A stretch of DNA of 64,000 nt. Source: Micromonospora ureilytica (GTDB lineage Bacteria; Actinomycetota; Actinomycetes; Mycobacteriales; Micromonosporaceae). A program made the position numbers and the translations under genes. The notes under the pieces were generated by a model, which saw nothing but the letters and a program-made list of their open reading frames with translations, searched no databases and was not told the DNA's origin. The DNA lies in NCBI RefSeq assembly GCF_015751765.1, contig NZ_JADOTX010000001.1, positions 3,348,001-3,412,000 on the forward strand. Reading direction: 5' to 3'. This document shows positions 12,716 to 37,910 of the stretch, in pieces (position 1 is the stretch's first letter; each line of letters opens with the position of its first letter).

Positions 12716-12752
12716 CGAGGGCTCTTATCGCAGGTCACGCCGGCTAGCGTAG

Positions 12753-12773: not shown

Positions 12774-12895
12774 TCCCGACGTGTTTCGGACTACTGTCCT
12801 CGCAGCGACGAGGCGGCGCCCCGCGCAAATTTCCCACTAGGATTCGATCGTCGCGAGCAACCCCCGTCTGCACGAAAGATCGGAGCGCCATTTCC

Positions 12896-14600: not shown

Positions 14601-14637
14601 AGTTCCGTCGAACGTCCGGCATCGACATGGCACCCGA

Positions 14638-14671
14638 GGACCGCGTCGCCCGCGTTGGGGCGGCGCGGTCC
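14638..14671 (+). terminator. Hairpin terminator after the exporter operon
   Basis: Arms at 14638-14651 and 14658-14671 pair over 14 positions with one mismatch and a 6-base loop, 38 bases after the ATPase stop codon. There is no U-tract. It separates the exporter operon from the cytidylyltransferase/SDR gene, which then likely has its own promoter. Confidence 0.7.
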
Positions 14672-14746
14672 GCGCGTTAAGGTTCATTCCGTCGCCGCTC
14701 GGGCGGAACCTTCCGTTAACGCATCCCTGAGAGTGAGGATCCGGCA

Positions 14747-16264: not shown

Positions 16265-16297
16265 CGCCGACGGCTGCGGAACCACGAACGGAGCGAC

Positions 16298-17968
16298 ATG
16301 CGCGGCGAACTGGTCCGAAAGCTGGCCGCCCGGTGCCTGACCACCGGGTTGGCCGTGCTGGCCTTTGTCGTGCTGGCGCTCACCGGCGCCACCGGTTGGG
16401 GGCTGGCACTGGCCGTCGCCGCGCTGGCCGCCTCGGCCGCCGAGCAGCGGATCCGGCCCAGCGCCGACCTCGTGGCGGAGACCACGTTGATCGCCGCCGC
16501 GATCCTGGCCGGTTACTCCCGACGACTGGATGACGGGCTCAACCTCGCGCTGGTCGCCACCGGGCTGGTCCTGCTGGGGCTGGTGCTGCTGGTGGGGCCG
16601 CTGCGCACCGCCGGCAGTCTGGAGATCCGGACGGTCAACCTGCCGGTCCGCGCGTGGACGCCGCTGATCGCCGACCGGCTCGGCACGGCCCTGCTCGGGC
16701 TGCTCGCCGCCCTGGCGCTCGCCGCAGCGCTCGCCCTGCCGGCCGGCGTGGCGCTCGCCGCCAGCCTGCTGGTCGGCGCGGGCGCCGGCGCGGTCGCACT
16801 GGACCTGGCCCGGCGGCGGTTCCGGCCGAGGGCCGGCGGCGGATCGGTGGCCGCCGCGCTGCGCCGGTACCAGCCGGAGTTCCTGCTCTACTTCTCCGCG
16901 CCCCCCGGGTCCGAATACCAGGTCACCATGTGGCTGCCGTACCTGGAACGGATCGGCCGGCCGTTCCTGGTCGTGCTGCGCGAGCCGGAGTTCCTGGCCC
17001 CGATCGCGGCGGCCACCGACGCGCCGGTGGTCTACTGCCCCACCCTGGGTGCGCTGGACGAGGCGTTGGTGCCGAGCCTGCGAGTGGCGTTCTACGTCAA
17101 CCACGGTGCGAAGAACAGCCACTGCGTCCGCTTCACCCAGCTCACCCACATCCAGCTGCACCACGGCGACAGCGACAAGGCGCCGAGCGCCAACCCGGTG
17201 TCGGGGATCTTCGACCGGATCTTCGTGGCCGGGCAGGCGGCGATCGACAGGTACGGCCGCGCCGGGGTGCAGATCCCGGCGGACAAGTTCGTGGTGGTGG
17301 GTCGCCCGCAGGTCGAGTCGATCGAGGTACGCCCGGAGCCCGCGCGAGGGCTGGCGCACCCGACGGTGCTGTACACGCCGACCTGGACCGGGCACCACGC
17401 CGACGCCGACTACTGCTCGCTGCCGGTGGCCGAGGAGCTGCTGCACCGGCTGCTGGAGCGCGGCGCGACGGTGATCCTGCGGGCCCACCCGTACACCGGG
17501 CAGAACCCGGCGTCGGCCCGCCAGCTGGGCCGCCTGACCGAGCTGCTCGTCGCCGACCGGGCCCGCACCGGCCGCCAGCACGTGGTCGGCGCGGCGGCCC
17601 GGGAGCTGAGCCTGACCGAGTGCGTCAACTCCTCCGACGCGCTGGTCTCCGACGTGTCCGGCGTGATCTCGGACTTCCTCTACTCCGGCAAGCCGTACGC
17701 GGTCACCGACATGGGCGACGAGGGCGACCGGTTCGTGGAGCGGTTCCCGCTGGCCGGGTCGGGTTACGTGCTGCGCCGGGACATGTCCAACGTGGACGAG
17801 GTGCTGACCGCACTGTTGGACACCGACCCGCTGGCCGAGGCCCGCTGGGCCACCCGCCGCCGCTACCTGGGTGACTTCCCGGCCGAGTCGTACGCGGAGG
17901 TGTTCCTGACCGCCGCCCGCCGGGAGCTGGCGCCCGCGGAGACACTTACCGCGTCGGCGTCGGCCTAG
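16298..17968 (+). CDS. Membrane-anchored polyol-phosphate transferase (TagF/TarL-like)
   Basis: The 556-residue product has the same build as the protein at 7738. About six hydrophobic segments fill residues 10-175, followed by a Glyphos_transf domain with IQLHHGDSDKAPSANPVSG, LYTPTWTGHHA, RAHPYTGQNP and LVSDVSGVISDFLYSG. The His and Asp residues of the HGDSD and DVSG-SD motifs are those known in the family. The ATG is 33 bases after the CDP-polyol synthase gene, with GGAGCGAC upstream, so the two probably form one operon. One paralogue might be a primase and the other a polymerase, as in TagB/TagF pairs. The convergent hydrolase gene starts only 4 bases beyond its stop codon, leaving no terminator space. 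Confidence 0.87.
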   Translation: MRGELVRKLAARCLTTGLAVLAFVVLALTGATGWGLALAVAALAASAAEQRIRPSADLVAETTLIAAAILAGYSRRLDDGLNLALVATGLVLLGLVLLVGPLRTAGSLEIRTVNLPVRAWTPLIADRLGTALLGLLAALALAAALALPAGVALAASLLVGAGAGAVALDLARRRFRPRAGGGSVAAALRRYQPEFLLYFSAPPGSEYQVTMWLPYLERIGRPFLVVLREPEFLAPIAAATDAPVVYCPTLGALDEALVPSLRVAFYVNHGAKNSHCVRFTQLTHIQLHHGDSDKAPSANPVSGIFDRIFVAGQAAIDRYGRAGVQIPADKFVVVGRPQVESIEVRPEPARGLAHPTVLYTPTWTGHHADADYCSLPVAEELLHRLLERGATVILRAHPYTGQNPASARQLGRLTELLVADRARTGRQHVVGAAARELSLTECVNSSDALVSDVSGVISDFLYSGKPYAVTDMGDEGDRFVERFPLAGSGYVLRRDMSNVDEVLTALLDTDPLAEARWATRRRYLGDFPAESYAEVFLTAARRELAPAETLTASASA

Positions 17969-24616: not shown

Positions 24617-25669
24617 ATGACGGCGACAATCAAGATCGGACCGCACGCGGTCGGTGCCGGGGAGCGACCGTTCGTGGTCGCCGAGATGTCCGGCAACCAC
24701 AACGGCGATCTGAACCGGGCGCTGGCCATCGTCGACGCGGTGGCCGACAGCGGGGCGCACGCGCTGAAGCTCCAGACGTACCGGCCGGACACGATCACCA
24801 TCGACGTCGACACCCCGGCGTTCCGGATCTCCAGCGGGCACGAGTTGTGGGGCGGGGAGAACCTGTACCGCCTCTACGAGCGCGCGCACACCCCGTACGA
24901 GTGGCACGCCCCGATCTTCGAACGGGCCCGCGAGCGTGGCCTGACCGTGTTCTCGTCGCCGTTCGACGCGACAGCCGTGGAGCTGCTGGAGTCGCTGGAC
25001 GCGCCCGCGTACAAGATCGCCTCGTCGGAGCTGGTCGACCTGCCGCTGATCCGGCTCGTGGCCAGCACCGGCAAGCCGATGGTGATCTCGACCGGAATGG
25101 CGACGGTCGCCGAGATCGACGCCGCCGTACGCACCGCCCGAGCCGGTGGCGCGGCGGGAATCGTCTTGCTGGCCTGCACCGCGTCCTACCCGGCGCCGCC
25201 GGCCGACAGCAACCTGCGCCGGCTGCCGGTGCTGGCCGGCGCGTTCGACGTCCCGGTCGGGCTCTCCGACCACACGCCCGGCATCGGAGTGGCGGTCGCC
25301 TCGGTGGCGCTCGGCGCCTGCTTCATCGAGAAGCACGTGACGCTGGACCGGGCCGACGGCGGCGTGGACTCGGACTTCTCCCTGAACCCGGCCGAGCTCA
25401 CGGCCCTGGTCGCCGAGTCGGGCCGCGCGTACGCGGCACTGGGCGGCACCGCGATCGGCCCCACCCCCGCCGAGCGGGAGGGGCTACGGTTCCGCCGGTC
25501 GCTCTTCGTGGTCGAGGACGTCCGGGCCGGCGACCTGGTGACCGCGCACAACGTCCGCTCGATCCGGCCGGCCGGCGGGCTGGCCCCCGTGGAGATCGAC
25601 CGGGTCCTGGGCCGCGCCTTCACCACCGACGTCCCCCGCGGCACCCCCCTGAGCTGGGACCAGATCTAA
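24617..25669 (+). CDS. pseI: Pseudaminic acid-type synthase (NeuB/PseI family)
   Basis: A 350-residue enzyme that condenses a 2,4-diamino hexose with phosphoenolpyruvate to give a nine-carbon nonulosonic acid. The NeuB barrel shows VAEMSGNHNGDLNRAL, LKLQTYRPDTIT, PAYKIASSELVDLPLI and VGLSDHTPGIGVAVASVALG with FIEKHVTLDR. An antifreeze-like (SAF) domain fills about 290-350 (RSLFVVEDVRAGD, NVRSIRPAGG). The segment NLYRLYERAHTPYEWH is characteristic of PseI rather than NeuB. The ATG follows AGGTCGGA. It acts before the CMP-activation enzyme encoded at 36058, although it stands apart from the main pseB-C-F-G run. Confidence 0.9.
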   Translation: MTATIKIGPHAVGAGERPFVVAEMSGNHNGDLNRALAIVDAVADSGAHALKLQTYRPDTITIDVDTPAFRISSGHELWGGENLYRLYERAHTPYEWHAPIFERARERGLTVFSSPFDATAVELLESLDAPAYKIASSELVDLPLIRLVASTGKPMVISTGMATVAEIDAAVRTARAGGAAGIVLLACTASYPAPPADSNLRRLPVLAGAFDVPVGLSDHTPGIGVAVASVALGACFIEKHVTLDRADGGVDSDFSLNPAELTALVAESGRAYAALGGTAIGPTPAEREGLRFRRSLFVVEDVRAGDLVTAHNVRSIRPAGGLAPVEIDRVLGRAFTTDVPRGTPLSWDQI

Positions 25670-25681: not shown

Positions 25682-25763
25682 GCCCCGTCGATCTTGCAGT
25701 TACTGTCCCGACGAAAGGCGTGTAAGCCGCGATTCGGCGTCAGAAAGTGCAAGATCGCGGGGC
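25682..25763. repeat. Palindromic intergenic repeat (GATCTTGCA...TGCAAGATC type)
   Basis: The 10-base perfect outer arms CGATCTTGCA (25689-25698) and TGCAAGATCG (25748-25757) are extended outwards by a G/C-rich pairing with one bulge and inwards by an imperfect pairing. It sits between convergent genes, so it can work as a bidirectional terminator. It also overlaps the last 19 or so codons of the leftward gene. It shares its AAGATC/GATCTT ends with the hairpins at 43588 and 43680. Confidence 0.7.
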
Positions 25764-26188
25764 GGGAGGGTCGGGGCGAAGCCGACGGTGATCACCAGGT
25801 CGGCCACGGCGAGGGTCCGCCAGACCGCCGATCCGTCGGCCGGCGGACCCAGACCGTGGCGCCGCCACCAGACCGCCATCGGTACGTCGGTCAGCTTGCA
25901 GCAGCACTCGGCGCGGGTCCACCGCGCCCAGAAGTCCTGCGCGCCGAACCGGCGGGCGAGCGCCGGGGGCACCGGGGCATCGGCGCGCTCCGCGTCGATG
26001 GCCACCCGCCAACCGGGCGCCGATGGGCCGTACCAGCCGACGCACCGTCCGTCGTCGAGGTGGCTGCGGGTCACCGCGTCGGCCAGGTCGGCGGGAGCGC
26101 CGATGCGCAGGTGCCGCTCGGCGGCGACGAGCAGCCCCGGCACCGGACGCGGCCGGACCAGCCGGTCCAGGTCAGATGGCGGCGGCAC
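25700..26188 (-). CDS. Small 4'-phosphopantetheinyl-transferase-like protein
   Basis: This 162-residue product is encoded last in a four-gene operon. The middle part reads WRVAIDAERAD...RRF...FWARWTRAECCCKLTDVP, which follows the pattern of Sfp/AcpS-type transferases: an acidic residue in the 'ID.E' strand, then 'F...W..(K)EA..K..G' with Trp, Glu and Lys in place. Such enzymes attach the phosphopantetheine arm to an acyl carrier protein, and one is encoded at the head of this same operon. The protein is shorter than Sfp, and its last ~19 residues are read from a palindromic repeat, so the C-terminus may be altered. Its start overlaps the upstream SDR gene by 17 bases. The function call is tentative. 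Confidence 0.5.
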   Translation of the reverse strand: MPPPSDLDRLVRPRPVPGLLVAAERHLRIGAPADLADAVTRSHLDDGRCVGWYGPSAPGWRVAIDAERADAPVPPALARRFGAQDFWARWTRAECCCKLTDVPMAVWWRRHGLGPPADGSAVWRTLAVADLVITVGFAPTLPPRDLALSDAESRLTRLSSGQ

Positions 26189-26927
26189 CGTCCACCACGA
26201 TGACCTGGCCGTTGATGTTGGTGTGCTCGCGCAGCAGCATCCGTACGACCGGGGTGACCTCCACCGGCTCGGTCAGGTGACCGGTCGGGGTGCGGCGCAC
26301 GATCTGGTCGAGCTGGGTCGGACCGAGCACCGCGGACATCTCCGACGCGAAGAAGCCGGGCGCGACCGAGTTGACCAGCATCCGGCCGCCCAGTTCGCGG
26401 GCGAGCGAGCGGGTGGCGGCGTCCATGCCGCCCTTGGTGGCCGAGTACGCGACGAGGCCGGGAAAACCGCGCTGCCCGCAGATCGAGGTGATGTTGACGA
26501 TCCGTCCGCGCAGTCCCTTGGCGAGCATCCGGCGGATCACCAACCGCGTCAGCTGTAGCGGGGCCGTCAGGTTGGTCTCGATGATCCGGGCGATGTCGTC
26601 GGTGGCGGTGTGCGCGTGCAGGGAGTCCTGCCCCATGGCGGCGTTGTTGACGATGCCGTCGATCGGGCCGAGACGCTGCTCCACCTCGCGGACGAAGCTC
26701 TGCGCGGCGCGCAGGTCGGTGACGTCCACCGCGCCGACGTGCACCCGGTCGGGGTGCTCGGCGGCGAGCTTCTCCAGCTCCGGGGTGATGGTGCGGGCGA
26801 ACGCGGCCACCTTGACGCCCGCGTCGAGCAGGTCGGTGACGATGGCCAGGCCCAGGCCACGGGAACCGCCGGAGACGAGGACCACGGAGCTGGGCGGGAC
26901 GAGCTGGGTGTCGGCGGGCTCAGACAT
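26172..26927 (-). CDS. Short-chain dehydrogenase/reductase (FabG-like)
   Basis: The 251-residue classic SDR has the nucleotide loop SGGSRGLGLAIV (residues ~20-31), the NNAAMG motif near 93, the catalytic Ser in NITSICG and YSATKGGMDAATRSLAREL (Tyr and Lys) at ~160-178, with VNSVAPGFF after it. FabG-type members reduce 3-ketoacyl chains on acyl carrier protein. Here the gene overlaps the AMP-ligase gene by 8 bases and the next gene by 17 bases in an operon led by an acyl carrier protein, so an acyl-ACP substrate is plausible. A sugar substrate cannot be excluded given the surrounding nonulosonate genes. Confidence 0.88.
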   Translation of the reverse strand: MSEPADTQLVPPSSVVLVSGGSRGLGLAIVTDLLDAGVKVAAFARTITPELEKLAAEHPDRVHVGAVDVTDLRAAQSFVREVEQRLGPIDGIVNNAAMGQDSLHAHTATDDIARIIETNLTAPLQLTRLVIRRMLAKGLRGRIVNITSICGQRGFPGLVAYSATKGGMDAATRSLARELGGRMLVNSVAPGFFASEMSAVLGPTQLDQIVRRTPTGHLTEPVEVTPVVRMLLREHTNINGQVIVVDGAAAI

Positions 26928-28185
26928 CGCTCTTCAGGGTCTCCTTGACGGGAATGTCGGTCAGGACGCGAATGCGGCGTGGCACCGCGTGCTCGGGAAG
27001 CCGGTCGGCGCACCAGCGGACCAGTGCGGCCTCGTCCGCCACGCCGGCATCGGCGGGGGCGAGGACCACCTCGGCGACCACCATCCGCCCGAGCACCGGG
27101 GCGCGGCGGCCGGTCACGCGGGCCCAGGCCACCGCCGGATGACCGGCCAACACGCCGCGGACCACACCGGCGGAGACCTTGCTGCCACCGACGTTGATCT
27201 CGTCGGAGTCCAGTCGGCCGGTGATCAGCACTCGGCCGTCGAGCACCTGCACCCGGTCGCCGGTGCGGATCGGGCCGGCGAGACCGGCACCGTGGTACGG
27301 GGAGGTGACCACCAGTTCGTCGTCGCGGACGGAGAGCGTCGGCCGGCCCGGGGTTTCCCGGTCCAGCCAGTCGACCGGGAACCCGGCCCGCCCGTCGTGC
27401 ACCACAATGGACGCCCCCACCTCTGAGGACGCGTAGATCCAGGAGATCCGGGCCGCCGGGAAGACCTCCCGCAGTTGGTCCAGGATCGCCTGGTCCACCG
27501 GTTCTCCGCCGAGGGTGATCTGACGCAGCGGCACCCGGGCCAGCGCTTCGGCGTCGCGGTAGAGGGTGCGCCGCCAGAAGGTCGGGGTGCCGGAGGCGGC
27601 GTCGACCCCGTGCGCGGCAGCGACCGAGGGCCAGTCGTCCAACTCGTCGGGCTCGACCACCACCAGGTGCTGACCGGGCTGGGTCAGCGACAGGGTGACC
27701 ACCTGCCACCAGGCGTACGTGCCGGGGGCGTACGGGCAGAGCCAGGTCCGGTCGGGCTGGTCCGCCCGGACGGTGGTCAGCGTGTCGAGGGTGTGCCCGA
27801 CCCGCTTCGGACGCCCCGTCGAGCCCGAGGTCAGCAGCCAGAGCCGGTGGGGCTCGGCGGCTCGCGGCCGGGCCGGGACACTCGGGCGCACGCCGTCGTC
27901 GTCGAGGACGCTGACGGTGAACCCGGCCTCCAGCAGCTCGGCACGCATCGTGGCGTCGACCCGACTGGCGGTGCTCAGCAGCAGCTCGGTGCCGTGCACG
28001 GCGTGCTGCCGCGCCGCGGTGAGCGCGTGCACGGCGGAGTGGGCGAGCACCGCCGCCGGGTCGGGCAGTGTGGGCGTCGGCAGCGAGCGCCAGGTCAGCG
28101 CGGCGCCACCGACGACGAGTCGATTGTCGACTCCGGCCGGCTCCGGGTGTGCGGGCGCGGGGTGGCGCGACGTCGCGACGGTCAC
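26920..28185 (-). CDS. Short acyl-adenylating ligase (ANL superfamily)
   Basis: At 421 residues it is shorter than usual (500-600), with only about 110 residues before the P-loop. Core motifs are intact: LLTSGSTGRPKRVGHT (A3), YASSEVGA (A5), RTGDRV (A7), GRLDSDEINVGGSKVS (A8) and the C-terminal PVKETLKSDV with the catalytic Lys (A10). It should activate a carboxylic acid with ATP. Because its start overlaps the stop of an acyl carrier protein gene (28182-28185), that carrier is the likely acceptor. The acid is unknown. No transmembrane or fused carrier domain is present. Confidence 0.85.
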   Translation of the reverse strand: MTVATSRHPAPAHPEPAGVDNRLVVGGAALTWRSLPTPTLPDPAAVLAHSAVHALTAARQHAVHGTELLLSTASRVDATMRAELLEAGFTVSVLDDDGVRPSVPARPRAAEPHRLWLLTSGSTGRPKRVGHTLDTLTTVRADQPDRTWLCPYAPGTYAWWQVVTLSLTQPGQHLVVVEPDELDDWPSVAAAHGVDAASGTPTFWRRTLYRDAEALARVPLRQITLGGEPVDQAILDQLREVFPAARISWIYASSEVGASIVVHDGRAGFPVDWLDRETPGRPTLSVRDDELVVTSPYHGAGLAGPIRTGDRVQVLDGRVLITGRLDSDEINVGGSKVSAGVVRGVLAGHPAVAWARVTGRRAPVLGRMVVAEVVLAPADAGVADEAALVRWCADRLPEHAVPRRIRVLTDIPVKETLKSDV

Positions 28186-28433
28186 TGGTGTTGAAGCTCG
28201 ACGAGGAAGTCGAGGACGTCCCCGACGGTGGCGATGCGCCGCAGCCCGGGGGCGTCGAAGTTGAGCTCCTCCCCCGTCTCGTCCTCCACCCGCAGGGCCA
28301 GCTCGGAGAAGTCGAGCGACCGGAAGCCGATCTCCCGCAACTGCGTCGCGTCGTCCGCGGGCAGCTCCTTGTCCTGGTTCTTCAGCACCTGAGCCATGAG
28401 GTCGCGGATCTGCGCGCGACTCAATTCGTTCAT
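28182..28433 (-). CDS. Discrete acyl carrier protein
   Basis: This 83-residue acidic helical protein has the phosphopantetheine site in EIGFRSLDFSELALRVED, where the Ser of RSLD is the attachment residue and D/E residues follow as usual. The site reads FRSLD instead of the common DSLD/DSLA, which may reflect a dedicated partner enzyme. It is the first gene of the operon ACP-ligase-SDR-PPTase-like, each overlapping the next. It is divergent, over only about 73 bases, from the PseH-like acetyltransferase gene. Start ATG 28433 has only a weak site (GCGGCGC). Confidence 0.87.
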   Translation of the reverse strand: MNELSRAQIRDLMAQVLKNQDKELPADDATQLREIGFRSLDFSELALRVEDETGEELNFDAPGLRRIATVGDVLDFLVELQHQ

Positions 28434-28506: not shown

Positions 28507-29043
28507 GTGAACGGCGAGGAAAGCGAGACGTACGTGCTGCGCGAAGCGACGACGGACGACGTTCATCTGATGTTGTCCTGGCGTAATCAGGAAACCAATC
28601 GACAGGTCAGCAAGACCAGTCACGAGATCACCGCCGAGGAGCACGCCCGGTGGTGGTCGACGGTCCGCGACGACAGGTCGCGGCGAGTCCTGGTGTACGT
28701 CCGCGACGACCGGCCCTGCGGTGTGGTCACCTTCTTCGACCTGCGGTTGGATGGCCCTCGCACCGGCGCGTGGGGCTTCTATCTGGACGCCGACGGGCTG
28801 GCCGGGCGGGACGAGACGCTGCCGGCCTGGCTGGGGGTCATGCGGGAGGCCGTCGAGTACGCCTTCGACGGGCTGCACCTGGACCGGCTCGACGGCGAGG
28901 TGCTCGGCCACAATACCGTCGTACGACAGATGAACCGACGTTTCCGATTTGTCGAGGGGACACCACGACAGGAGCTGTCCGACGGTCGGGAAATCACCGT
29001 CATCCCGATTTCCCTGGCTCGGGCAGACCGCCGTCAGCGCTGA
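28507..29043 (+). CDS. pseH: PseH-like GNAT N-acyltransferase
   Basis: A 178-residue GNAT protein with VLREATTDDVHLMLSWRN at the N-terminus, ITAEEHARWWSTV, a PCGVVTFFDLRLDGPRTGAWGF strand region (the acyl-CoA-binding core) and NTVVRQMNRRFRFVEG near the end, matching PseH/SpsD-type sugar N-acetyltransferases. In the known pathway PseH N-acetylates the C4 amine of the aminosugar made by PseB and PseC. Here it lies back-to-back with an acyl carrier protein operon, which raises the possibility of a different acyl donor. GTG 28507 is used; GTG 28534, 10 bases after GAGGAAAG, is an equally good start and gives VLREATTDDV directly. Confidence 0.85.
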   Translation: MNGEESETYVLREATTDDVHLMLSWRNQETNRQVSKTSHEITAEEHARWWSTVRDDRSRRVLVYVRDDRPCGVVTFFDLRLDGPRTGAWGFYLDADGLAGRDETLPAWLGVMREAVEYAFDGLHLDRLDGEVLGHNTVVRQMNRRFRFVEGTPRQELSDGREITVIPISLARADRRQR

Positions 29044-29145: not shown

Positions 29146-30882
29146 TCAGACCCGCCGCCAGGCCGCCCAGTGCTGCGCCGGGTTGCCACCGAGTCGAACG
29201 AAGCCGTACGCCGTGCCGTTCCAGTCGTCGGCCTGCCCGGGCGCCCAGCGGGCGAACACCACCTGCGCCGCGGCCGGCGGCTGCCCGACGCCGAACCACC
29301 GGACGTCGGTCCAGGTCACCTGGTGGCTGAGGTTGAACCGCAGGACGTAGTGCACGCCGGTCGAGGCCCACACCCGCTCGCCGGGGCGTACGCCGACGTC
29401 GGCCACCCGGGGTGTCGGCGCGGTGCTCGCGGCGGCCGGTTGCACGATCCGCTTGTCGATCACCTGCATGGTGACGAGGTTGACCACCACGAGGGCGCCG
29501 AGGATCGGCAGCCGCAGGCGGGGCACCCGGACCGCGGCGACGAGCAGCGCACAGCCGGCGATGCCGACCAGTGAGCCGACCACCGGTCGCAACTCCCGCC
29601 AGCCCCCGGTCAACGCCACCAGGTCCGGCGCGCTGAAACCGCCGTAGCGCAGCTGGTGGCCCTGGCTGGCCACGTACGCGAGTCGGGCCGCGACAAGCGC
29701 GCCGCCACCGACCAGCAGCGCCACCGCGACGGCCGCCCGGCGCAGCACCACCCGCCACCCGGCGGTGAACAGCACTCCCAGCCCGACCAGCAGCCAGAAC
29801 GGCGCGAGCATCTGCACGTAGCGGCCGTAGATCGCGTCCAGCGGTTTGCCGGTGATGCCGGACAGGATCACCGACGCGCCGCCGGCCACCCCGACGGTCA
29901 CCACAAGCGCCACACCCATCGTCCAGCGGGCCGCGTCGCCGTGCCGTGGGCGCCACAGCTCGCGCACAGCGCCGGCCCAGGCCACCCCGGCCATCCCGAA
30001 CGTGATCACCACGAGGTACCAGAGCTGGGTGGTGACCGCGGCGCCCACCCGGACCACGCCCTGGGCGGAGGCGATCGCCTCGACCATGCTGCCGCCGGGG
30101 GCGCTGCCGAGCAGGTAGACCTTGCCGCCGAGGTAACGGATGGCGGCCTCGTTGACGAGCGCCATGGCGAGTACCGGCAGCAGCGCCGCGAGCACCACGG
30201 GCGGGCTGATCCGGCGGCGGACGAACAGCAGCAGGACCAGCCCGGCGTGCACGGCCACGATCACCAGGCCACGGGAGTGCAGCAGGTGGAACCCGCCGAC
30301 CAGCAGGCCGACGGTGGCGGCGGCGAGCGGGCCGGGCCGGGCGATCCAGCGGTGCACGGCGAGCAGCCAGGCGACCACCAGCGGCGCCATCACCGCGTCG
30401 ATCATGGCGACGCCCGCGTAGAAGGCGGTGGCCGGCAGGGTCGCCGCCGCGACCGCGCCGAGCAGCGCGTACGAGCGGCGCAGCTGGAACAGCCGGCGAC
30501 CGAACAGGTACGCCAGCGGCAGCAGCGTCGAGTTCACCATCGCGTTGATCAGCTGGACGATCCGGTAGCTGTCGGTGAAGTCCCGGTCCCCGAGGAACGC
30601 CGGCGAGATCAGCATCGGGTAGCCGACCCGGCGCAAAAGGTCGTTCTCGCTGCTGAAGCCCCCCGGGCCGCCCGCGAGGGCGCGGGCGGTGTTCAGGTAG
30701 CTGTCCTCGTCGGTGTGCGCGATCGGCAGCGCGATGTGCCGGGACCACCACATCCGCCAGGCCACGCTGAGCACCCAACCGACGACCAGCAGCAGCGGCA
30801 CCAGCCAACGCCGGGTGGTCGGGCCGCTCGGCGTCTCGGCTCCCACCACCGGCCGTTCGATCACGTCACTACCGGGTGCCAT
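29146..30882 (-). CDS. GT-C type polytopic membrane glycosyltransferase
   Basis: A 578-residue protein with about twelve hydrophobic segments and a C-terminal extracytoplasmic domain of ~120 residues. After the first helix comes ALPIAHTDEDSYLNTARAL, in which the D-E-D cluster sits where GT-C (ArnT/PMT-like) enzymes hold their catalytic Asp. VGYPMLISPAF and LINAMVNSTLLPLAY follow, as in this superfamily. GGAGGCG lies before the ATG at 30882. It is divergent from pseB and convergent with pseH, so it belongs physically to the nonulosonate cluster and may glycosylate the exported polymer. Donor and acceptor are unknown. Confidence 0.75.
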   Translation of the reverse strand: MAPGSDVIERPVVGAETPSGPTTRRWLVPLLLVVGWVLSVAWRMWWSRHIALPIAHTDEDSYLNTARALAGGPGGFSSENDLLRRVGYPMLISPAFLGDRDFTDSYRIVQLINAMVNSTLLPLAYLFGRRLFQLRRSYALLGAVAAATLPATAFYAGVAMIDAVMAPLVVAWLLAVHRWIARPGPLAAATVGLLVGGFHLLHSRGLVIVAVHAGLVLLLFVRRRISPPVVLAALLPVLAMALVNEAAIRYLGGKVYLLGSAPGGSMVEAIASAQGVVRVGAAVTTQLWYLVVITFGMAGVAWAGAVRELWRPRHGDAARWTMGVALVVTVGVAGGASVILSGITGKPLDAIYGRYVQMLAPFWLLVGLGVLFTAGWRVVLRRAAVAVALLVGGGALVAARLAYVASQGHQLRYGGFSAPDLVALTGGWRELRPVVGSLVGIAGCALLVAAVRVPRLRLPILGALVVVNLVTMQVIDKRIVQPAAASTAPTPRVADVGVRPGERVWASTGVHYVLRFNLSHQVTWTDVRWFGVGQPPAAAQVVFARWAPGQADDWNGTAYGFVRLGGNPAQHWAAWRRV

Positions 30883-31248
30883 CAACGCCTCCAGAATTGC
30901 CGGCCGGACCGGGGCCACGCCGATCCGACGGGCCCGCCGGCCGGCGTCGGTGACGCACGGGGTGACCCGCTCGCACCGAGCCGGTGTGGATGTCAGGTGA
31001 ACGCGGGACCCGGCTGCGCGCAGGGGTCGCCGGGTCGTTCGCGCGGTCACTGTAACGGCCCGATCCGGCCAGGTCAGCCCACATCCGGGGCGGTCGGAAG
31101 TGTTCGCCTACGCGGTGTCCGGCATTCACGGGAGCAGAGGTTGCGGTTCACCCGCGAGCGCCGAGGAGTTAACCCGCCATGGCTAGCGTGTCACCCCGGT
31201 CGGCCGGCCCAGGGCCGCTCGTTCATCCACGAACACGGGAGCCACACA
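30883..31248. other. Divergent promoter region between the GT-C gene and pseB
   Basis: 366 bases without a gene. Towards pseB it holds GAGTTAACCCGCC and then GGCTAGCGTGTCA, where TAGCGT resembles an actinobacterial -10 box about 65 bases before the pseB start; no matching -35 was clear. The half next to the leftward gene is G/C-rich and featureless. An in-frame upstream extension of pseB is open through this region but lacks a start with a ribosome-binding site. Confidence 0.5.
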
Positions 31249-32232
31249 TTGAGTGAGTTGAATGGATCGTCCATTCTGATCACCGGAGGAACTGGTTCCT
31301 TCGGCAGGACGTTCCTCCGGCACATCCTCAACGAGGCCGACCCCGCCAGAGTGGTGGTGTTCTCCCGCGACGAGCTCAAGCAGTACGAGCTGCGCCAGCA
31401 ACTCGGCGACGACCCGCGGCTGCGCTGGTTCATCGGCGACATCCGGGACCGGCACCGCCTCACCCGGGCCATGCACGGCGTGGACCACGTGGTGCACGCC
31501 GCCGCGTTGAAGCAGGTGGACACCGCGGAGTACAACCCCTCGGAGTACATCGCCACAAACATCACCGGCTCCCAGCACGTCGTCGACGCGGCGATCGAGG
31601 CCGGCGTCAAGAAGGTCATCGCGCTCTCCACCGACAAGGCGTCCAGCCCGATCAACCTGTACGGCGCGACGAAGCTGGTCGGCGACAAGCTGTTCGTCTC
31701 GGCCAACCACTACGCCGCCCAGCACCCCACCCGGTTCGCCGTGGTGCGCTACGGCAACGTGGTGGGCAGCCGCGGTTCGGTCGTCCCGCTGTTCCGTCGG
31801 CTGGCCGCCGAGGGCAAGAGCCTGCCGATCACCGACAAGCGGATGACCCGCTTCTGGATCACGCTCGACCAGGCCGTGCAGTTCGTCATGGACTCGTTCG
31901 ACCAGATGCAGGGCGGCGAGCTGTTCGTGCCGCGTATCCCGAGCATGCGCATCCTCGACCTGGTCGAGGCCGTGGCCCCGGACGCCACCACCCACGAGAT
32001 CGGGATCCGGCCGGGCGAGAAGCTGCACGAGGAGATGATCGCGCCCGACGACAGCCGGCGGACGCTGCGCGCCGACGGCCGGTTCATCGTCCAGCCCACC
32101 ATCGCCACCTGGGGTTACCAGCCGCCGGTGGACTGCGACCCGGTGCCGGACGGCTTCGCCTACCAGTCGGACACCAACGACGAGTGGCTCACCGTCGAGC
32201 AGTTGCGCGACATGCTCGGCATCAACGGATGA
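31249..32232 (+). CDS. pseB: UDP-N-acetylglucosamine 4,6-dehydratase (inverting), PseB
   Basis: This 327-residue extended SDR catalyses the first step of pseudaminic acid synthesis, 4,6-dehydration with C5 epimerisation of UDP-GlcNAc. The nucleotide loop is ITGGTGSFGRTFL, the substrate region is VHAAALKQVDTAEYNPSEY, ALSTDKASSPINLYGATK carries the catalytic Lys region, and FWITLDQAVQFV and IGIRPGEKLHEEM follow, all PseB/FlaA1-like. Start TTG 31249 has GGGAG 8 bases upstream and gives the normal N-terminus. The stop overlaps the pseC ATG in an ATGA arrangement, so the pair is translationally coupled. Confidence 0.93.
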   Translation: MSELNGSSILITGGTGSFGRTFLRHILNEADPARVVVFSRDELKQYELRQQLGDDPRLRWFIGDIRDRHRLTRAMHGVDHVVHAAALKQVDTAEYNPSEYIATNITGSQHVVDAAIEAGVKKVIALSTDKASSPINLYGATKLVGDKLFVSANHYAAQHPTRFAVVRYGNVVGSRGSVVPLFRRLAAEGKSLPITDKRMTRFWITLDQAVQFVMDSFDQMQGGELFVPRIPSMRILDLVEAVAPDATTHEIGIRPGEKLHEEMIAPDDSRRTLRADGRFIVQPTIATWGYQPPVDCDPVPDGFAYQSDTNDEWLTVEQLRDMLGING

Positions 32233-33386
32233 CGGGGATGCTCCCGTACGGCCGGCAGTCGATCAACGAGGACGACGTCGCGGCCGTCGCCGACGTGCTG
32301 CGCGGCGACTGGCTCACCACAGGTCCGCAGGTCGACGCCTTCGAGGCCGACCTCGCCCGGTGGACCGGCGGGGTCGGTGTCGCCGCCGTCTCCAACGGCA
32401 CCGCGGCGCTGCACGTGGCGTACGCGGCGGCCGGGGTGGGACCGGGCGACGAGGTGGTCGTCCCGCCGATGACGTTCGTGGCGACCGCCAGCAGCGCGGT
32501 CGCCCTCGGCGCGACCATCGTGTTCGCCGACGTCGACGACGAGACGTTCTGCCTCGACCCGGCGGCGGCCGCCGCGGCGGTGACCTCGCGGACGAAGGTC
32601 GTCGCCGCTGTCGACTACGCCGGGCACCCCGCCGACTACGACGCGCTGCGCACGTCGGTCGAGGGCAGCGACGCGCTGCTGCTCGCCGACGCGGCCCACT
32701 CGATCGGCGGGACGTACCACGGTCGGCCGGTCGGTTCGCTCGCCGACCTGACCACGTTCTCGTTCTTCCCCACCAAGAACCTGACCACCGCCGAGGGCGG
32801 CGCCGTCGCGGCGCTGGACCCGGACATCCTGAGGCGGGCCCGCCGGTTCCGTGGCGTCGGCGTGGTCCGCGAACGTGACGACCTGCGTTTCCCCGACGAG
32901 GGTGGCTGGCACCAGGAGGTGCACGAGTTCGGGCTGAACTACCGGCTACCGGACGTGCTCTGTGCCCTGGGCCGCAGCCAACTACGTCGGCTCGGCGAGT
33001 TCACCGCCCGCCGCAGCGCCCTGGTCGCCCGCTACGACGAGGCGCTGGCCGACCTGGACGGCGTGCTGCTGCCGACCCGCAGGTCGTGGGCCGACCCGGC
33101 CTGGCACCTCTACCCGATCCGGGTGCTCGACGGTCGCCGTCGCGAGGTGTACGACCGGATGCGGGCCGCCGGCATCGGCGTCCAGGTCAACTACCTCCCG
33201 GTGCACTGGCACCCGGCGTTCGCCGACCTGGGCTACCGGCGCGGATCCTGCCCGGTGGCCGAGTCGTTCTACTCCCAACAGCTGTCGCTACCGCTCTACC
33301 CGGGGCTCAGCGACGCCGACCAGGACCGCGTCATCGACGCGCTGACCGCCGCGGTGCGGGTCGGCTCGGTGCGTTCCGCCGCCTGA
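32229..33386 (+). CDS. pseC: UDP-4-amino-4,6-dideoxy-sugar aminotransferase, PseC
   Basis: A 385-residue PLP-dependent DegT/DnrJ/EryC1-family aminotransferase. It starts MLPYGRQSINEDDVAAVADVLRGDWLTTGP, the usual PseC N-terminus, and has AVSNGTAALHVAYAAAG for cofactor phosphate binding, ADAAHSIGG for the Asp and SFFPTKNLTTAEGG with the Schiff-base Lys near residue 183. It converts the PseB 4-keto product to the 4-amino sugar using glutamate. The ATG overlaps the pseB stop codon. Confidence 0.93.
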   Translation: MTGMLPYGRQSINEDDVAAVADVLRGDWLTTGPQVDAFEADLARWTGGVGVAAVSNGTAALHVAYAAAGVGPGDEVVVPPMTFVATASSAVALGATIVFADVDDETFCLDPAAAAAAVTSRTKVVAAVDYAGHPADYDALRTSVEGSDALLLADAAHSIGGTYHGRPVGSLADLTTFSFFPTKNLTTAEGGAVAALDPDILRRARRFRGVGVVRERDDLRFPDEGGWHQEVHEFGLNYRLPDVLCALGRSQLRRLGEFTARRSALVARYDEALADLDGVLLPTRRSWADPAWHLYPIRVLDGRRREVYDRMRAAGIGVQVNYLPVHWHPAFADLGYRRGSCPVAESFYSQQLSLPLYPGLSDADQDRVIDALTAAVRVGSVRSAA

Positions 33387-33396: not shown

Positions 33397-34245
33397 ATGC
33401 ACCACGCCAACCACTTCTACGGCCACGCGCACGTGCTGGCCCGGTACGCCGGCCTCGGCGACCGGCACCCACCACGGATCAACGGGTACGTGCAGCACGG
33501 CTGGAACATCGGTGACGGCCTCGCCCCCGGCCACCCGTACGCCGAACGCACCCCCAGCCTGCTCTGGTCCGAGCAGACCCGCCGCCGGGCCTGGTCGGTG
33601 GGGCGACGCAACGTGGTCGTCATCGGCGCGCCGTTCACCTACCTGCTGGCCCTGCGACCCGAGGAACCACCGGCGGAGGAACGGGAGGGCACCATCTGGT
33701 ACCCGTTCCACGGCTGGGAGGGTCAGCACGTCAAGGGCGACCACCGCAAACTGATCGCCCTCATCCAGGACACCGAGCCCGGCCCGGTCACGGTCTGCCT
33801 CTACTGGCACGAGTACCGGATGCGCAACGTGCGCCGGCTCTACGAGCGCGCCGGGTTCCGGGTGATCTGCCACGGCTACCGGGGGCACTGGTGGAAGGAC
33901 ACCGACCCGGAGTTCCTCGACCGACAGCTCACCGAGCTGCGCCGTCACCGCCGGGTAGCATCCAACCGGCTGACCAGCGCGATCTTCTACGGCATCGCGG
34001 CGGGGTGCGAGCCGGCGGTCTACGGCGACCCGATGATCCTGTCCAACGAGGACCCCACCTTCGGCGGCACCGCCCGGATCCGACGGCAGTGGCCACAGCT
34101 GCACGGCACCACCGTCGACCTGCCCACCGCGGTCGAGATCGCCCGCGCCGAGTTGGGCACCGACCACCGATGCACGCCCGCCGAGCTCCGCGAGCTGCTC
34201 GGTTGGGCGCACCTTCAGGAGGAAGAGGAAGACCGTGACGACTGA
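33397..34245 (+). CDS. Unassigned surface-glycan protein, possible GT-B transferase
   Basis: The 282-residue protein lies between pseC (10 bases upstream) and a methyltransferase-like gene that overlaps its end. It has no signal peptide or membrane helix. It opens MHHANHFYGHAHVLARYAGL and then RINGYVQHGWNIG, and later carries ASNRLTSAIFYGIAAGCEPAVYGD, which resembles the donor-binding segment of GT-B enzymes (an 'S...(F)YG...G.P...(Y)GD' pattern). Capsule- and sialyl-type transferases look broadly similar, so a CMP-nonulosonate transferase is a reasonable hypothesis. The family is not firmly recognised. Confidence 0.55.
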   Translation: MHHANHFYGHAHVLARYAGLGDRHPPRINGYVQHGWNIGDGLAPGHPYAERTPSLLWSEQTRRRAWSVGRRNVVVIGAPFTYLLALRPEEPPAEEREGTIWYPFHGWEGQHVKGDHRKLIALIQDTEPGPVTVCLYWHEYRMRNVRRLYERAGFRVICHGYRGHWWKDTDPEFLDRQLTELRRHRRVASNRLTSAIFYGIAAGCEPAVYGDPMILSNEDPTFGGTARIRRQWPQLHGTTVDLPTAVEIARAELGTDHRCTPAELRELLGWAHLQEEEEDRDD

Positions 34246-36061
34246 GACGGCACCCGCCGGCCGGATCACCCTGCCGGGCGGCGAGATGCTGGCCTGGTCG
34301 GACCTGCCGCAGGAGCGGCTGGCCAACGGTGGACCCCTCGCCGCGCTGGCCGCCCGGCTGGTGCCGCCCGGCGCCCGGGTCCTGGTGGCCGGTCCACACG
34401 ACCCGGCGCTGCTCGACCAACTCACCCACGCCGAGGTGACCTGCCTGCTGCGCAGCCACCCGGACGCGGTGGCGCTGGCGCACCGGGCCGCCCGCGTGGT
34501 GGTGGGTGGCCCGAGCGGGCTGCCCGACGACGAGACGTACGACGTGGTGATCGCGGCCGCCGGGCTGGACCCGGTCGAGTCGGTGGAGGGCGCCCGGCTC
34601 GGCTGGGACGGTGTGCTGGCCCGACTCGCCGCCGCGGTACGACCGGGTGGTGCGTTGCTGCTGCGCCTGGACAACCCGCTGGGCCTGCACCGGCTCGTCG
34701 ACACCACCCCCTGGTACGCCCTCCGGGACGACTCCGCCTGGATGATCGGCGGCGTGTTGGACCGCGCCCACCCGGCCAACCGGGACCAGCTGCGCGAGCG
34801 GCTCCGCGCGGCGGGGCTGCGGCCGGCCGCGTGCTGGGCCGCGTACCCCGATGTCAACACCCCGACCGCGCTGCTGGACGCCGACCACCTCGACCGGGAC
34901 GCGGGCTCCGGTCTGTTCGACGCGGTGCTGCACGGCGCCTGCGCCGGGGGTTTCACCAGCGCCACAGTGCTCCAGGACCCGGCCCGGCTGGCGGTGGACG
35001 CGCTGCACGCCGGACGCGCCGCCGACCTCGCACCGAGCTGGCTGACCCTCGCCCACCGGCCCACCGACCCCACGGACCCGACCACGCCGACCGCCGATCC
35101 GGACCTGCCGGTGGCTCTCATGCAGACCGGTCGCCCCGGGATCGGCGTGCTGGAGGTGCTGCACGGCCCCTCCGGCTGGCGCTGGGGGCTCATCCCGGCC
35201 GTCGACGCGACGACGCCGGCCGTCGCGCCGTTCGCCAGCCGCGAGGCCGCCTACCGGGACGTGGACGCGCTGTCCGGGCCGGTGCCGTCCGGCCGGCTGC
35301 TGCGTACCCTGCTGCTCGACGCGGCCCTGCGCCGCGACCTGGCCACCCTGCGCGCGCTGCTGCACGGGTACGCGGGCTGGCTCGCCGACCAGGCCGACAC
35401 CGACGGTCGGATCGCCGGCGCGGCGGCGCTGGCCGGCACCGACAACGTCGTTGTCGACGGCGAGCGGTACGCGGTGCTCGACCCCAGCTGGCGGGCCACC
35501 GCCGCGCTGCCCGCCGACGTGGTGCTCGCCCGCGGCCTGTGGCGCTTCGCCGCGGGCCTGCTCACCGGCGGGTACGCCCACCCGTGGTCGTCCACTCTCG
35601 ACGTAGCGGGCCTGACCGTGGTGCTCGGCGGCCTCGCCGGCCACGACCTCGACCGCGCGACAGTCGACGAGGCGGTGGAGGCCGAGGCGGCCATCGCCGC
35701 CGCGCTGCACGGGTTGGACGCCGGCGGCACTGTCGACCTCGCCGCCGAGCTGCACGCCGTCGCGCCGACCGACCCGCCGGTCGGCGGGCACAGCTACCAG
35801 CAGCTGCGCGAGGCGTGGCTGCGCCAGCGCGAAGAACTCACCCGGTTGGCCGCGCTGACCGCGTGGACAGAGGAGTTGCTCACCTCGCGGGAACGGGCGC
35901 TGCGCCGGGCCGAGACGACGATCCACCTGCTCAGCGGGTCGCTCAGCTACCGGGTGGGCCGGCTCGCCATCACCCCGGCCCGGCTGGCCAAGCGGGGCGC
36001 CCGCGCCGCCAAACGCCGGGCCACCGCGGTGCTCGCCCCCAAGCAGGAGGAGCAGCAGTGA
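34235..36061 (+). CDS. Multidomain protein with N-terminal methyltransferase-like domain
   Basis: 608 residues. About residues 30-215 look like a class I SAM-dependent methyltransferase fold (ARVLVAGPHDPALL, ETYDVVIAAAGLDPVES, AAVRPGGALLLRLDNPLGL). The central ~330 residues are unassigned and Ala/Leu/Asp-rich. The last ~80 residues form a probable coiled coil (REAWLRQREELTRLAAL, TSRERALRRAETTIHLL) ending in SLSYRVGRLAITPARLAKR, a tail often seen at the ends of surface-polymer glycosyltransferases. GTG 34235 overlaps the previous gene by 11 bases and follows AGGAGGAAG. The next gene overlaps its stop codon. It could be a methylating or chain-length-controlling component of the polymer assembly complex. 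Confidence 0.6.
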   Translation: MTTETAPAGRITLPGGEMLAWSDLPQERLANGGPLAALAARLVPPGARVLVAGPHDPALLDQLTHAEVTCLLRSHPDAVALAHRAARVVVGGPSGLPDDETYDVVIAAAGLDPVESVEGARLGWDGVLARLAAAVRPGGALLLRLDNPLGLHRLVDTTPWYALRDDSAWMIGGVLDRAHPANRDQLRERLRAAGLRPAACWAAYPDVNTPTALLDADHLDRDAGSGLFDAVLHGACAGGFTSATVLQDPARLAVDALHAGRAADLAPSWLTLAHRPTDPTDPTTPTADPDLPVALMQTGRPGIGVLEVLHGPSGWRWGLIPAVDATTPAVAPFASREAAYRDVDALSGPVPSGRLLRTLLLDAALRRDLATLRALLHGYAGWLADQADTDGRIAGAAALAGTDNVVVDGERYAVLDPSWRATAALPADVVLARGLWRFAAGLLTGGYAHPWSSTLDVAGLTVVLGGLAGHDLDRATVDEAVEAEAAIAAALHGLDAGGTVDLAAELHAVAPTDPPVGGHSYQQLREAWLRQREELTRLAALTAWTEELLTSRERALRRAETTIHLLSGSLSYRVGRLAITPARLAKRGARAAKRRATAVLAPKQEEQQ

Positions 36062-36819
36062 CCGGCGTACTCCCCACCGACGGCTCCGGGCCACGGATCG
36101 TCGGCATCGTGCAGGCGCGTATGGGTTCGTCCCGACTGCCCGGCAAGGTGCTCCGCCCGCTCGCCGGACGGTCCGTGCTGGGCCGGGTCGTACGCGCCGC
36201 CCGGGACAGCGGCGTCCTGGCCGACCTGGTGGTCGCCACCAGCACCGACACCGTCGACGACGCGGTGGCCGTCGAATGCGCGCGGCTCGACGTGCCGTGC
36301 CACCGCGGGCCGGTCGACGACGTGCTGGACCGCTTCGTGGGCGCCCTCGCGGCACACCCGGGGGACGCCGTCATGCGGTTCACCGCCGACTGCCCCCTGC
36401 TCGACCCGGAGATCATCGCCCTGGTCGCGTCGGTGTACCGGGCGGTCCCCGGGCTGGACTACGCGAGCACCTCGATCGCCCGGACCCTGCCCCGCGGGCT
36501 GGACGTCGAGATCATCCGAGCGGAGACCCTCCGCACCCTGGGCCGGCTCGCCACCGACCACCACCGGGTGCACGTGACCTCGTACGCGTACACCCACCCG
36601 GAGCTGTTCCGGGTGCTCGGGGTGACGCTCACCCCGGACCGCTCCGCGCTGCGGCTGACCCTCGACACCGAGCAGGACTGGGCGCTGGTCAGCGCGATCA
36701 TCGACCACTTCGGTGACGTCAGCGTGCCGCTCGCCAAGCTCGCCGACTGGCTCGACGGTCAGCCCAGGCTGCGCTCGCTCAACGCCGACGTACGACAGAA
36801 GCCGCTGGAGGAGTCCTGA
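36058..36819 (+). CDS. pseF: SpsF/PseF-type nonulosonate cytidylyltransferase
   Basis: This 253-residue member of the CMP-sugar transferase family (PF02348) begins RIVGIVQARMGSSRLPGKVLRPLAG, the classic nucleotide-binding start, followed by LVVATSTDTVDDAV and VMRFTADCPLLDPEII (metal-binding Asp). In this context it should activate the nonulosonic acid to the CMP form. The SpsF subgroup differs from Campylobacter PseF (NeuA-like), so the assignment rests partly on synteny with pseG. GTG 36058 overlaps the upstream stop codon, with GGAGGAGCAGCA upstream. Confidence 0.87.
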   Translation: MTGVLPTDGSGPRIVGIVQARMGSSRLPGKVLRPLAGRSVLGRVVRAARDSGVLADLVVATSTDTVDDAVAVECARLDVPCHRGPVDDVLDRFVGALAAHPGDAVMRFTADCPLLDPEIIALVASVYRAVPGLDYASTSIARTLPRGLDVEIIRAETLRTLGRLATDHHRVHVTSYAYTHPELFRVLGVTLTPDRSALRLTLDTEQDWALVSAIIDHFGDVSVPLAKLADWLDGQPRLRSLNADVRQKPLEES

Positions 36820-37910
36820 GCACCCTGAGGGTCGGGTTGCGCTGCGACGCCGGGCCACGGCGCGGCGTCGGCCACCTCGTCCGCTGCCTGGCGCTCGCCG
36901 AGGAGTTCCTCGCCCGGGGCGCCGACGTCACGGTGTTCGGCACCGTCGAACGCCTCGACTGGGCAACCGCGGAGCTGGCCGCCCGGGGCATCCCGCTGCT
37001 CCCCGGCCCGGACTCGGCGGCCGAACTGGTCGAGACGGCCCGCCGACACCACCTGGACGTGCTGGTCCTCGACTCCTACGAACTGGACCCGGCCGGGGCC
37101 GGCGCCCTACGCGCCGCCGGCGTGTACACCCTCGCCATCATCGACGGCGACAGCCGAGGCCAGGTCGCGGACCTCTACCTCGACCAGAACTTCGGAGCGG
37201 AGCTGCCCGGCCCGGGTGCCGTGCCGGGCCTGGGTGCCGGCGTGGGGTTGCCCGGCCGGTTGCTCGCCGGGAGCGGGTACGCCCTGCTGCGCGACACCGT
37301 GATCAGCGCCCGGCCACCGGTCGCCCCGCCCGCCACGGCGGTCGGCCGCCCCCGGGTGCTGGCCTTCTTCGGCGGCACCGACGCGGTCGGCGCGGCCCCG
37401 GTCCTGACCCGGGTGCTGGTGGCCACCGGTCACCCGATGGACCTCACAGTCATCGTGGGGCGACCGGAGATCGAAGCCGAGGTCGAGGACGTCACCCCCG
37501 GCCGGGGGCAGATCATCCGACCGGTCCCGCCCACCACCTCGCTACCGGCACTGATCACCGAAGCCGACCTGGTGGTCAGCGCCGCCGGCACGTCCACCTG
37601 GGAACTCTGCTGCCTCGGCGCACCCACTGCACTGGTCTGCGTGGTCGACAACCAACGTGAGTCGTACACCCGGGTGGTGCGACACGGCCTGGCCGCCGGC
37701 CTCGGCGAGCTTCCCGAGCTGACCGCCGGCGGCGTCGCCGGACGAGCCGCCCGCGCGACGGCGGCGCGGACCCTGCACGGGCTGCTCAGCTCACCGCAGC
37801 GGCGCACGACGCTCGCCGCGCGGGCCTGGTCCACTGTCGACGGGCAGGGCCGGGCGCGGGTCGTGGACGCGGTGTTCGACGCCGTACGCGCCGCCGCCGT
37901 CACCGGCTGA
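36816..37910 (+). CDS. pseG: UDP-2,4-diacetamido-trideoxyhexose hydrolase, PseG
   Basis: The GT-B-fold hydrolase releases UDP to give the free diamino sugar used by PseI. Motifs are LRCDAGPRRGVGHLVRCLALAEEF (its His is the family's catalytic residue), LVLDSYELD, VLAFFGGTDAVG and LVVSAAGTSTWELCCLG. A TTG at 36837 would cut away the first beta-strand (LRVGLRCDA). Upstream in frame there are only CTG codons, at 36816 and 36825. The CTG at 36816 overlaps the pseF stop as CTGA and has GGAGGAG just upstream, so translation probably begins there, giving about 364 residues. Confidence 0.88.
   Translation: MSTLRVGLRCDAGPRRGVGHLVRCLALAEEFLARGADVTVFGTVERLDWATAELAARGIPLLPGPDSAAELVETARRHHLDVLVLDSYELDPAGAGALRAAGVYTLAIIDGDSRGQVADLYLDQNFGAELPGPGAVPGLGAGVGLPGRLLAGSGYALLRDTVISARPPVAPPATAVGRPRVLAFFGGTDAVGAAPVLTRVLVATGHPMDLTVIVGRPEIEAEVEDVTPGRGQIIRPVPPTTSLPALITEADLVVSAAGTSTWELCCLGAPTALVCVVDNQRESYTRVVRHGLAAGLGELPELTAGGVAGRAARATAARTLHGLLSSPQRRTTLAARAWSTVDGQGRARVVDAVFDAVRAAAVTG

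Follow-up and report, generated by a model that had tools for sequence, protein, structure and literature searches.

In 98 Aeromonas strains, the flagellar islands encoding pseudaminic acid (Pse) biosynthesis are described as containing genes for an acyl carrier protein (ACP), a 3-oxoacyl-ACP reductase and an AMP-synthetase (PMC7874193), and genes of the same kinds were counted in enterobacterial islands (PMC4875605). A putative role in liposugar formation was suggested for the Aeromonas genes (PMC7874193). A related arrangement is analysed here in a stretch of 64,000 nucleotides (the window) within the 7.1-Mb single-contig genome of Micromonospora ureilytica (NZ_JADOTX010000001.1, positions 3,348,001 to 3,412,000). 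Four genes on the reverse strand form an operon specifying a discrete ACP (83 aa, 28182..28433), a short AMP-forming acyl ligase (421 aa, 26920..28185), a FabG-like short-chain dehydrogenase/reductase (SDR; 251 aa, 26172..26927), and a small phosphopantetheinyl transferase-like (PPTase-like) protein (162 aa, 25700..26188) that is absent from some operons. Neighbouring genes overlap by 4, 8 and 17 bp, and the placement of the genes agrees with an earlier, sequence-only reading of the window. Back-to-back with the operon, on the forward strand, lies the gene for the GNAT N-acyltransferase PseH (28534..29043). It is considered probable that the operon is an acyl-activation module for this PseH and leads to Pse with a non-acetyl acyl group on N7.

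The resemblance to the group II islands of Aeromonas is evident, since there, too, genes for an ACP, a FabG-like reductase and an AMP-ligase are located in the pseudaminate cluster, downstream of pseH (PMC7874193). The window operon differs from these islands by the lack of LuxE and LuxC, a shorter ligase, the PPTase-like gene, and a divergent PseH that is exchanged alongside. Compared by named functions and not by sequence, the Aeromonas-type gene set is that of other pse clusters in the window's own family. A Pse residue in which one acetyl group is replaced by dihydroxybutanoyl weighs 376.148 by arithmetic, and a Pse derivative of 376.14 Da is reported from Aeromonas AH-3 (PMC7874193). This agreement identifies nothing, because the cassette of AH-3 is the one with LuxE/LuxC, and other formulae would give that mass as well.

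In Azospirillum (A. ramasamyi and A. brasilense Sp7), ACP, ligase and SDR genes likewise follow each other in this order, tightly spaced, beside pseI, and the ligase is 34-37% identical in alignment A4. The Azospirillum locus, which is situated by a flagellin gene, differs in that it additionally encodes ketoacyl-ACP synthase III (KAS III), a further carrier protein and an alpha/beta hydrolase. Moreover, the ACP of the triad carries DSL, the usual motif, and no PPTase-like gene is annotated at the locus. The sequence-only reading had assumed that known pse pathways need no ACP, which is contradicted by the Aeromonas islands (PMC7874193), by the homologous Azospirillum triad, and by a second cassette found within the genus Micromonospora.

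Two further systems provide precedents for unusual acyl groups on amino sugars. The viosamine island of P. syringae (vioA, vioB, vioR, vioS, acp) has N-3-hydroxybutanoyl viosamine as its product, and a vioR mutant is devoid of the viosamine sugar (PMC3927599). Here as well, an ACP and a 3-oxoacyl-ACP reductase serve the N-acylation of a nucleotide amino sugar, but KAS III replaces the AMP-ligase, the sugar is another one, and the acyltransferase is VioB (PMC3927599). The published scheme contains an N-acetoacetyl viosamine intermediate, so the reductase may act only after the transfer (PMC3927599). In A. baumannii, clusters of the psaABCDEF type are assigned Pse5Ac7Ac and those of the psaABCGHF type an N7-(R)-3-hydroxybutanoyl form (PMC9676051), a precedent for the exchange of genes on the acyltransferase side together with a new N7-acyl group, although an ACP operon and the donor are not mentioned for psaABCGHF in the excerpts of that paper. 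Among the best-ranked open-licence titles (2-20 per search), none dealt with an operon of this kind in the pse clusters of actinobacteria. Gene sets for ACP, reductase and ligase next to pse genes are already known in Gram-negative bacteria; the new observation is an exact co-inheritance with one clade of PseH.

Co-inheritance of the operon with one PseH clade

Among 300 genomes of the family, the ligase was detected in 56 (E <= 1e-30) and PseI in 138 (E <= 1e-40). PseI is present in 55 of the 56 ligase genomes; the remaining one, G253, is a fragmented assembly whose ligase contig measures 9.4 kb. When all 300 genomes were ranked by their best PseH match, the top 56 were exactly the 56 ligase genomes, and in none of these is there a second PseH match at E <= 1e-8, from which it follows that the operon-type PseH replaces the other type. 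Within the genus, PseH is 74-98% identical to that of the window in 50 operon loci versus 43-49% in 14 others. For eight other genes (PseB, PseC, PseF, PseG, PseI, two genes of unassigned role, and a glycosyltransferase) the two identity ranges overlap or miss each other by 2 points, as exemplified by PseB (92-99 versus 87-96%) and PseI (88-99 versus 80-86%).

Trees gave the same picture. All operon-linked PseH sequences are placed on one side of a branch with a support of 100/100 (48 rows), and this split was retained with a support of 99 when other families were added (83 rows). In the PseI tree, the operon label needs four changes, with 82 rows as well as with 37; the larger version omitted L120, the PseI half of operon genome G278. 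Very similar Micromonospora rows entered the trees as subsets. In independent pairs, PseH type and the residue at position 134 track the operon in four out of four cases. This residue is Asn in 95/95 operon-linked rows and His in 23/23 others, and position 131 is Arg in all 95 but Leu, Val or Ile in the others. The 95 rows comprise 55 family loci and 40 named loci from outside Micromonospora, two genomes being represented twice (L108/L158 and L114/L199), and the 23 operon-less rows all stem from the window's family, L141 having yielded none. The suggestion in the sequence-only reading that the operon is tied to the PseH N-acyltransferase is borne out by these data: with exact co-occurrence, a single clade and a fixed residue difference, the link is far stronger than adjacency.

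The PseH proteins of H. pylori and C. jejuni with solved structures (4ri1 and 4xpk) are GNAT enzymes related to the window protein by sequence (profile E 6e-4 and 3e-12), and the acceptor is presumed to be the same. Asn134 aligns with Tyr in both, consistent with Tyr138 of the H. pylori enzyme, a residue proposed to act as general acid; the donor of that enzyme is acetyl-CoA (PMC4363471). Asn134 marks the operon-linked clade, as judged from the alignments, but does not by itself establish a link to hydroxyacyl transfer. A charge on PseH for docking of the ACP was also considered and rejected, as the operon type is no more basic than the other type.

Across the phylum, 396 evenly drawn genomes, the window's included, contained the ligase in four cases (E <= 1e-40) and PseI in 13 (E <= 1e-80). 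The four, which include the genome of the window itself, lie within the 13 (Fisher 7e-7); another of the four, G425, has a remoter, Azospirillum-like ligase on a contig different from that of PseI. When named genomes were scanned with the ACP, 128 relatives emerged, and the 80 best were retained. These were from Knoellia, Terrabacter, Humibacillus, Intrasporangium, Flexivirga, Dermacoccus, Raineyella, Propionicicella, Kribbella (including nine VKM strains; examples with the operon are VKM Ac-2568, L178, and VKM Ac-2572, L184), Hamadaea, Actinoplanes and Micromonospora (for instance M. lupini, L191, and M. saelicesensis, L192), among others. Within the stretches fetched, ACP, ligase and SDR genes occur together in 79 of these best 80 loci, PseH in 76, PseI in 70 and the PPTase-like gene in 59. 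PseH and/or PseI are missing from ten named loci, nine of which are stretches of 5-13 kb ended by contig ends, while the tenth, L163 (19.8 kb), contains matches to PseB and PseF but none to PseH or PseI. In the 55 family ligase loci other than the window's, ACP, ligase and SDR are invariably present (55/55) and the PPTase-like gene in 52. Plasmids gave no match to this ACP. The sequence-only reading had proposed a search for co-occurrence in other actinobacterial genomes and had named operons lying regularly far from pse genes as evidence against it; such counter-evidence did not appear, the operon being found with pse genes in several actinobacterial families.

These numbers also bear on the possibility that the operon is part of an unrelated small secondary metabolite and resides in the pse cluster by chance. 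Related triads do exist elsewhere. In L231 (5566-16984), an ACP, a short ligase and an SDR are encoded in a cluster resembling those for nonribosomal peptide synthetases (NRPS), with a condensation protein and an AurF-type oxygenase (Pfam), and L232 has ligase and SDR matches of the same kind. On two Rhodobacterales plasmids, ACP-ligase-SDR triads follow a gene annotated as acyltransferase (L229, 8063-10798(+); L230, 7265-10737(+)), and an aminotransferase and an epimerase are encoded nearby in L230. Such triads may represent the same module in the service of other amino sugars. Nevertheless, co-occurrence with PseI in 55 and with the PseH type in 56 of 56 family genomes, and with pse genes in several actinobacterial families, makes a chance location very improbable.

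A second cassette in operon-less pse clusters

Twenty-four operon-less clusters were fetched, 14 of the window's genus and ten from other genera of the family. A complete ACP-SDR-ligase-LuxE-LuxC cassette was detected in ten of them: in L121 at 7114-12034(-), where LuxE (PF04443) and LuxC (PF05893) were checked, and in L122, L124, L125, L126, L134, L136, L138, L139 and L145. Seven of the 14 genus clusters have it, in the slot between PseI and PseB. Two clusters contain parts of the cassette (L140, L142) and two contain remnants, namely the ACP and the first half of the SDR gene in L129 (6915-7542(-)) and the ACP alone in L130 (7118-7357(-)); both look as if the remaining cassette genes had been deleted. 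In the other ten, no match to ACP2, LuxE or LuxC was obtained within the stretch. Conversely, neither LuxE nor LuxC was matched anywhere in the window or in the fetched stretches of the 55 family operon loci and the 80 named loci. To regard the operon-less clusters as plain acetyl clusters is untenable, since many hold a complete, partial or remnant second cassette.

The ordinary PseH type was encountered with the second cassette, without it and with its remnants. As it persists without the cassette, the latter need not feed PseH. This observation is in line with another explanation of the operon, according to which acyl-ACP is destined for a different acceptor in the polymer, by O-acylation of Pse or another sugar, while PseH would work with acetyl-CoA and would be co-inherited with the operon as its neighbour. 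A membrane acyltransferase gene (PF01757, 21784-23133) in the window's cluster could provide such an activity, but it is also present in operon-less clusters. Moreover, neighbourhood fails to explain why PseH was exchanged and PseI, a neighbour too, was not, and in Kribbella PseH is of the operon type even though it is about 5 kb off. For these reasons, another acceptor appears unlikely, and a module serving PseH is preferred.

Operon proteins and the proposed acyl transfer

The catalytic residues of the operon proteins are kept. The ACP (PF00550, 28.5 bits versus a cutoff of 20.8) has its phosphopantetheine serine, Ser39, and the preceding Arg38 conserved in 99/99 relatives, and the motif FRSLDFSELALRVEDE is without variation in the 12 rows of alignment A1. 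It therefore carries Arg-Ser-Leu instead of Asp-Ser-Leu, the usual ACP motif. The ligase is matched by PF00501 (65.1 bits, starting at profile position 88) and PF13193 (44 bits), both above cutoff. Glu255, Asp310 and Lys418 are found in 99/99 relatives and Lys127 in 97/99, the relatives' reading frames, with starts chosen by script, being 397-479 aa long. The SDR matches PF00106 and PF13561 above cutoff and does not reach the cutoff of the FabG equivalog TIGR01830 (170.9 versus 297.75 bits); of the catalytic Ser-Tyr-Lys residues of SDRs, Tyr161 and Lys165 are present in 99/99 relatives and Ser148 in 98/99.

The assignment of the fourth protein is less straightforward. It has no Pfam match; in particular, PF01648, the 4'-phosphopantetheinyl transferase superfamily, does not match the window protein and matches only three of 40 related rows, weakly (best E 0.083). 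D65, E67, E94 and K98 are invariant across the 40 rows of alignment A2, and D.E and E...K constitute the metal-binding motif of PPTases. A search of solved structures with its profile returned a single, irrelevant match (E 0.21). As an essential part of the operon the gene was rejected, since it is missing from three of 55 family loci. In genome-wide searches, in which 150 first-look candidates per genome were scored, 13 of 16 operon-bearing genomes gave no match, whereas it was found in G000, G704 and G705. There was also no match in 36 ligase-less genomes, the control being the same model matching in operon-bearing genomes. In L115 (genome G217), a stop codon interrupts the PPTase-like match (14739-15257(+)) with the rest of the operon present, which fits a dispensable gene.

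From these features we infer the following flow of substrate. The four genes would represent a portable acyl-activation module dedicated to the adjoining PseH. The ligase would adenylate a small carboxylic acid and load it onto the ACP, which would be armed by the PPTase-like protein or, where its gene is missing, by a general PPTase, and the FabG-like SDR would reduce a beta-keto group, either on the ACP or after transfer. The ACP-bound acid would then be handed to PseH, yielding an unusual N7-acyl pseudaminate, and PseG, PseI and PseF would produce CMP-Pse with a non-acetyl acyl group on N7, destined for a cell-surface, probably wall, polymer. The acyl group would most likely be a 3-hydroxyacyl such as 3-hydroxybutanoyl; by analogy to A. 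baumannii, P. syringae and Azospirillum, a beta-hydroxyacyl group that is formed with the aid of the ACP and then attached by PseH seems the likeliest case. Operon-bearing bacteria thus probably make a sialic-acid-like surface sugar with an unusual acid. Taken on its own, acyl-ACP as the direct donor of PseH has about an even chance, and a group like 3-hydroxybutanoyl somewhat less than that.

A different donor or acid has to be weighed at this point. PseH could be fed with acyl-CoA, the ACP serving only to hold the substrate of the SDR, or the ligase could load an amino-acid-like or a different hydroxy acid, giving aminoacyl, lactyl or glyceroyl groups. The solved PseH binds acetyl-CoA (PMC4363471), and 7-N-glyceroyl Pse is mentioned for Tannerella (PMC9912281). 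By sequence, the ligase has diverse relatives in the PDB, among them NRPS adenylation proteins, beta-aminoacyl-ACP synthetases and a malonyl-CoA ligase, so that its substrate is not fixed. On the other hand, no dedicated ACP would be required if the donor were a CoA ester, and the SDR is retained wherever testable (Tyr and Lys in 99/99), pointing to a keto or hydroxy group. Such routes are therefore rated as improbable, more so than another acceptor, and acyl-ACP feeding PseH remains the favoured scheme.

Several points weigh against this scheme. Only four independent exchanges are available, too small a number for a sign test (p 0.125). The second cassette illustrates that adjoining pse genes is not by itself proof of feeding PseH, and in Kribbella about 5 kb separate the operon from PseH, with PseI still farther away. 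The operon contains no ketosynthase and so does not explain the supply of a beta-keto acid. The mean net charge is -4.0 for operon-type PseH versus -0.8 for the other type; as the operon type is not more basic, simple electrostatic docking of an acidic ACP is not indicated. Finally, FdhC, which uses 3-hydroxybutanoyl-CoA, carries His (5kta) where operon-type PseH has Asn134, so that Asn at this position does not in itself indicate hydroxyacyl transfer.

All in all, the hypothesis has strong genetic support. A more detailed version is offered tentatively: an acyl-ACP-dependent PseH, with Asn in place of the general acid of CoA-using PseH, would act with a dedicated ACP of the Arg-Ser-Leu type, joined in most of the lineages seen by a PPTase of half the usual size. 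This set would be exchanged as a unit among pse clusters of actinobacteria and, sharing its slot with the different, five-gene LuxE/LuxC cassette, would set the N7-acyl group of a wall nonulosonate. Co-inheritance would give genes of the Gram-negative ACP/reductase/ligase type a concrete and testable job, the choice of the N7-acyl group of pseudaminate, and it names the acceptor enzyme, PseH, together with a diagnostic residue. Natural pairs are provided by clusters that resemble each other apart from the module. Among the best-ranked open-licence titles (2-20 per search), no N-acyl groups were found for polymers of Micromonospora or Kribbella, and the enzyme papers PMC13011467, PMC4691044, PMC6333632 and PMC3628348 were of no help. 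Teichulosonic acids are reported from Kribbella (PMC6113628), and as VKM strains of this genus carry the operon, polymer chemistry is directly comparable with genes.

Surroundings of the operon

That the operon stands back-to-back with PseH inside a pse block was confirmed, with the qualification that PseH (TIGR03585, 74.4 bits versus 93.1), PseC, PseG and PseF all score below the cutoffs of their models. The distance of about 73 bp between ACP and PseH genes given in the sequence-only reading holds for an in-frame GTG at 28507. It does not hold for the conserved PseH start, GTG 28534, which opens the MLR.AT block of the relatives and leaves a gap of 100 bp. The divergent ACP/PseH pair recurs in 55/55 other operon-bearing family genomes, with 77-137 bp between the ends of the BLAST matches, and hence is not a chance arrangement.

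All assigned pse genes around the operon are on the forward strand. PseI, the pseudaminate synthase (24617..25669), is well above cutoff (TIGR03586, 454.3 versus 340.25). The dehydratase PseB (31249..32232) was recognized by PF02719 and its translation, and the aminotransferase PseC (32229..33386), whose start was picked by the overlap with PseB, is just below cutoff (TIGR03588, 397.9 versus 423.5 bits). The PseF-like cytidylyltransferase (36076..36819, start approximate) reaches 26.9 against 205.7 with the PseF model and obtains higher scores from KdsB-type models, all of them below cutoff, and the PseG-like nucleotide-sugar hydrolase is located at 36837..37910 (TIGR03590, 128.7 versus 153.55 bits). 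Upstream in the window, 12062-17968 contains genes for an ABC-2 type permease, an IspD-SDR fusion and a CDP-glycerol glycerophosphotransferase-like protein. Beside a pse cluster, these give the locus a wall-polymer, teichoic-acid-like make-up, and the Pse may well be destined for such a polymer.

Over 23.3-33.4 kb, the nearest named relatives are Micromonospora species, M. parva with 93% identity over 10.1 kb and, as best single pieces, M. foliorum, M. noduli and M. saelicesensis with about 95% over 7.3 kb. A membrane-protein-like reading frame between PseH and PseB (29146-31050, reverse strand, no Pfam match) is present in 46/55 operon loci and in 0/25 others; with nine operon loci lacking it, it was dropped as a fixed part of operon clusters. 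Two genes between PseC and PseF (33397-36061), to which no Pfam family could be assigned above cutoff, are shared by operon-bearing and operon-less clusters of the genus, with 81-99% and 61-96% identity to the window.

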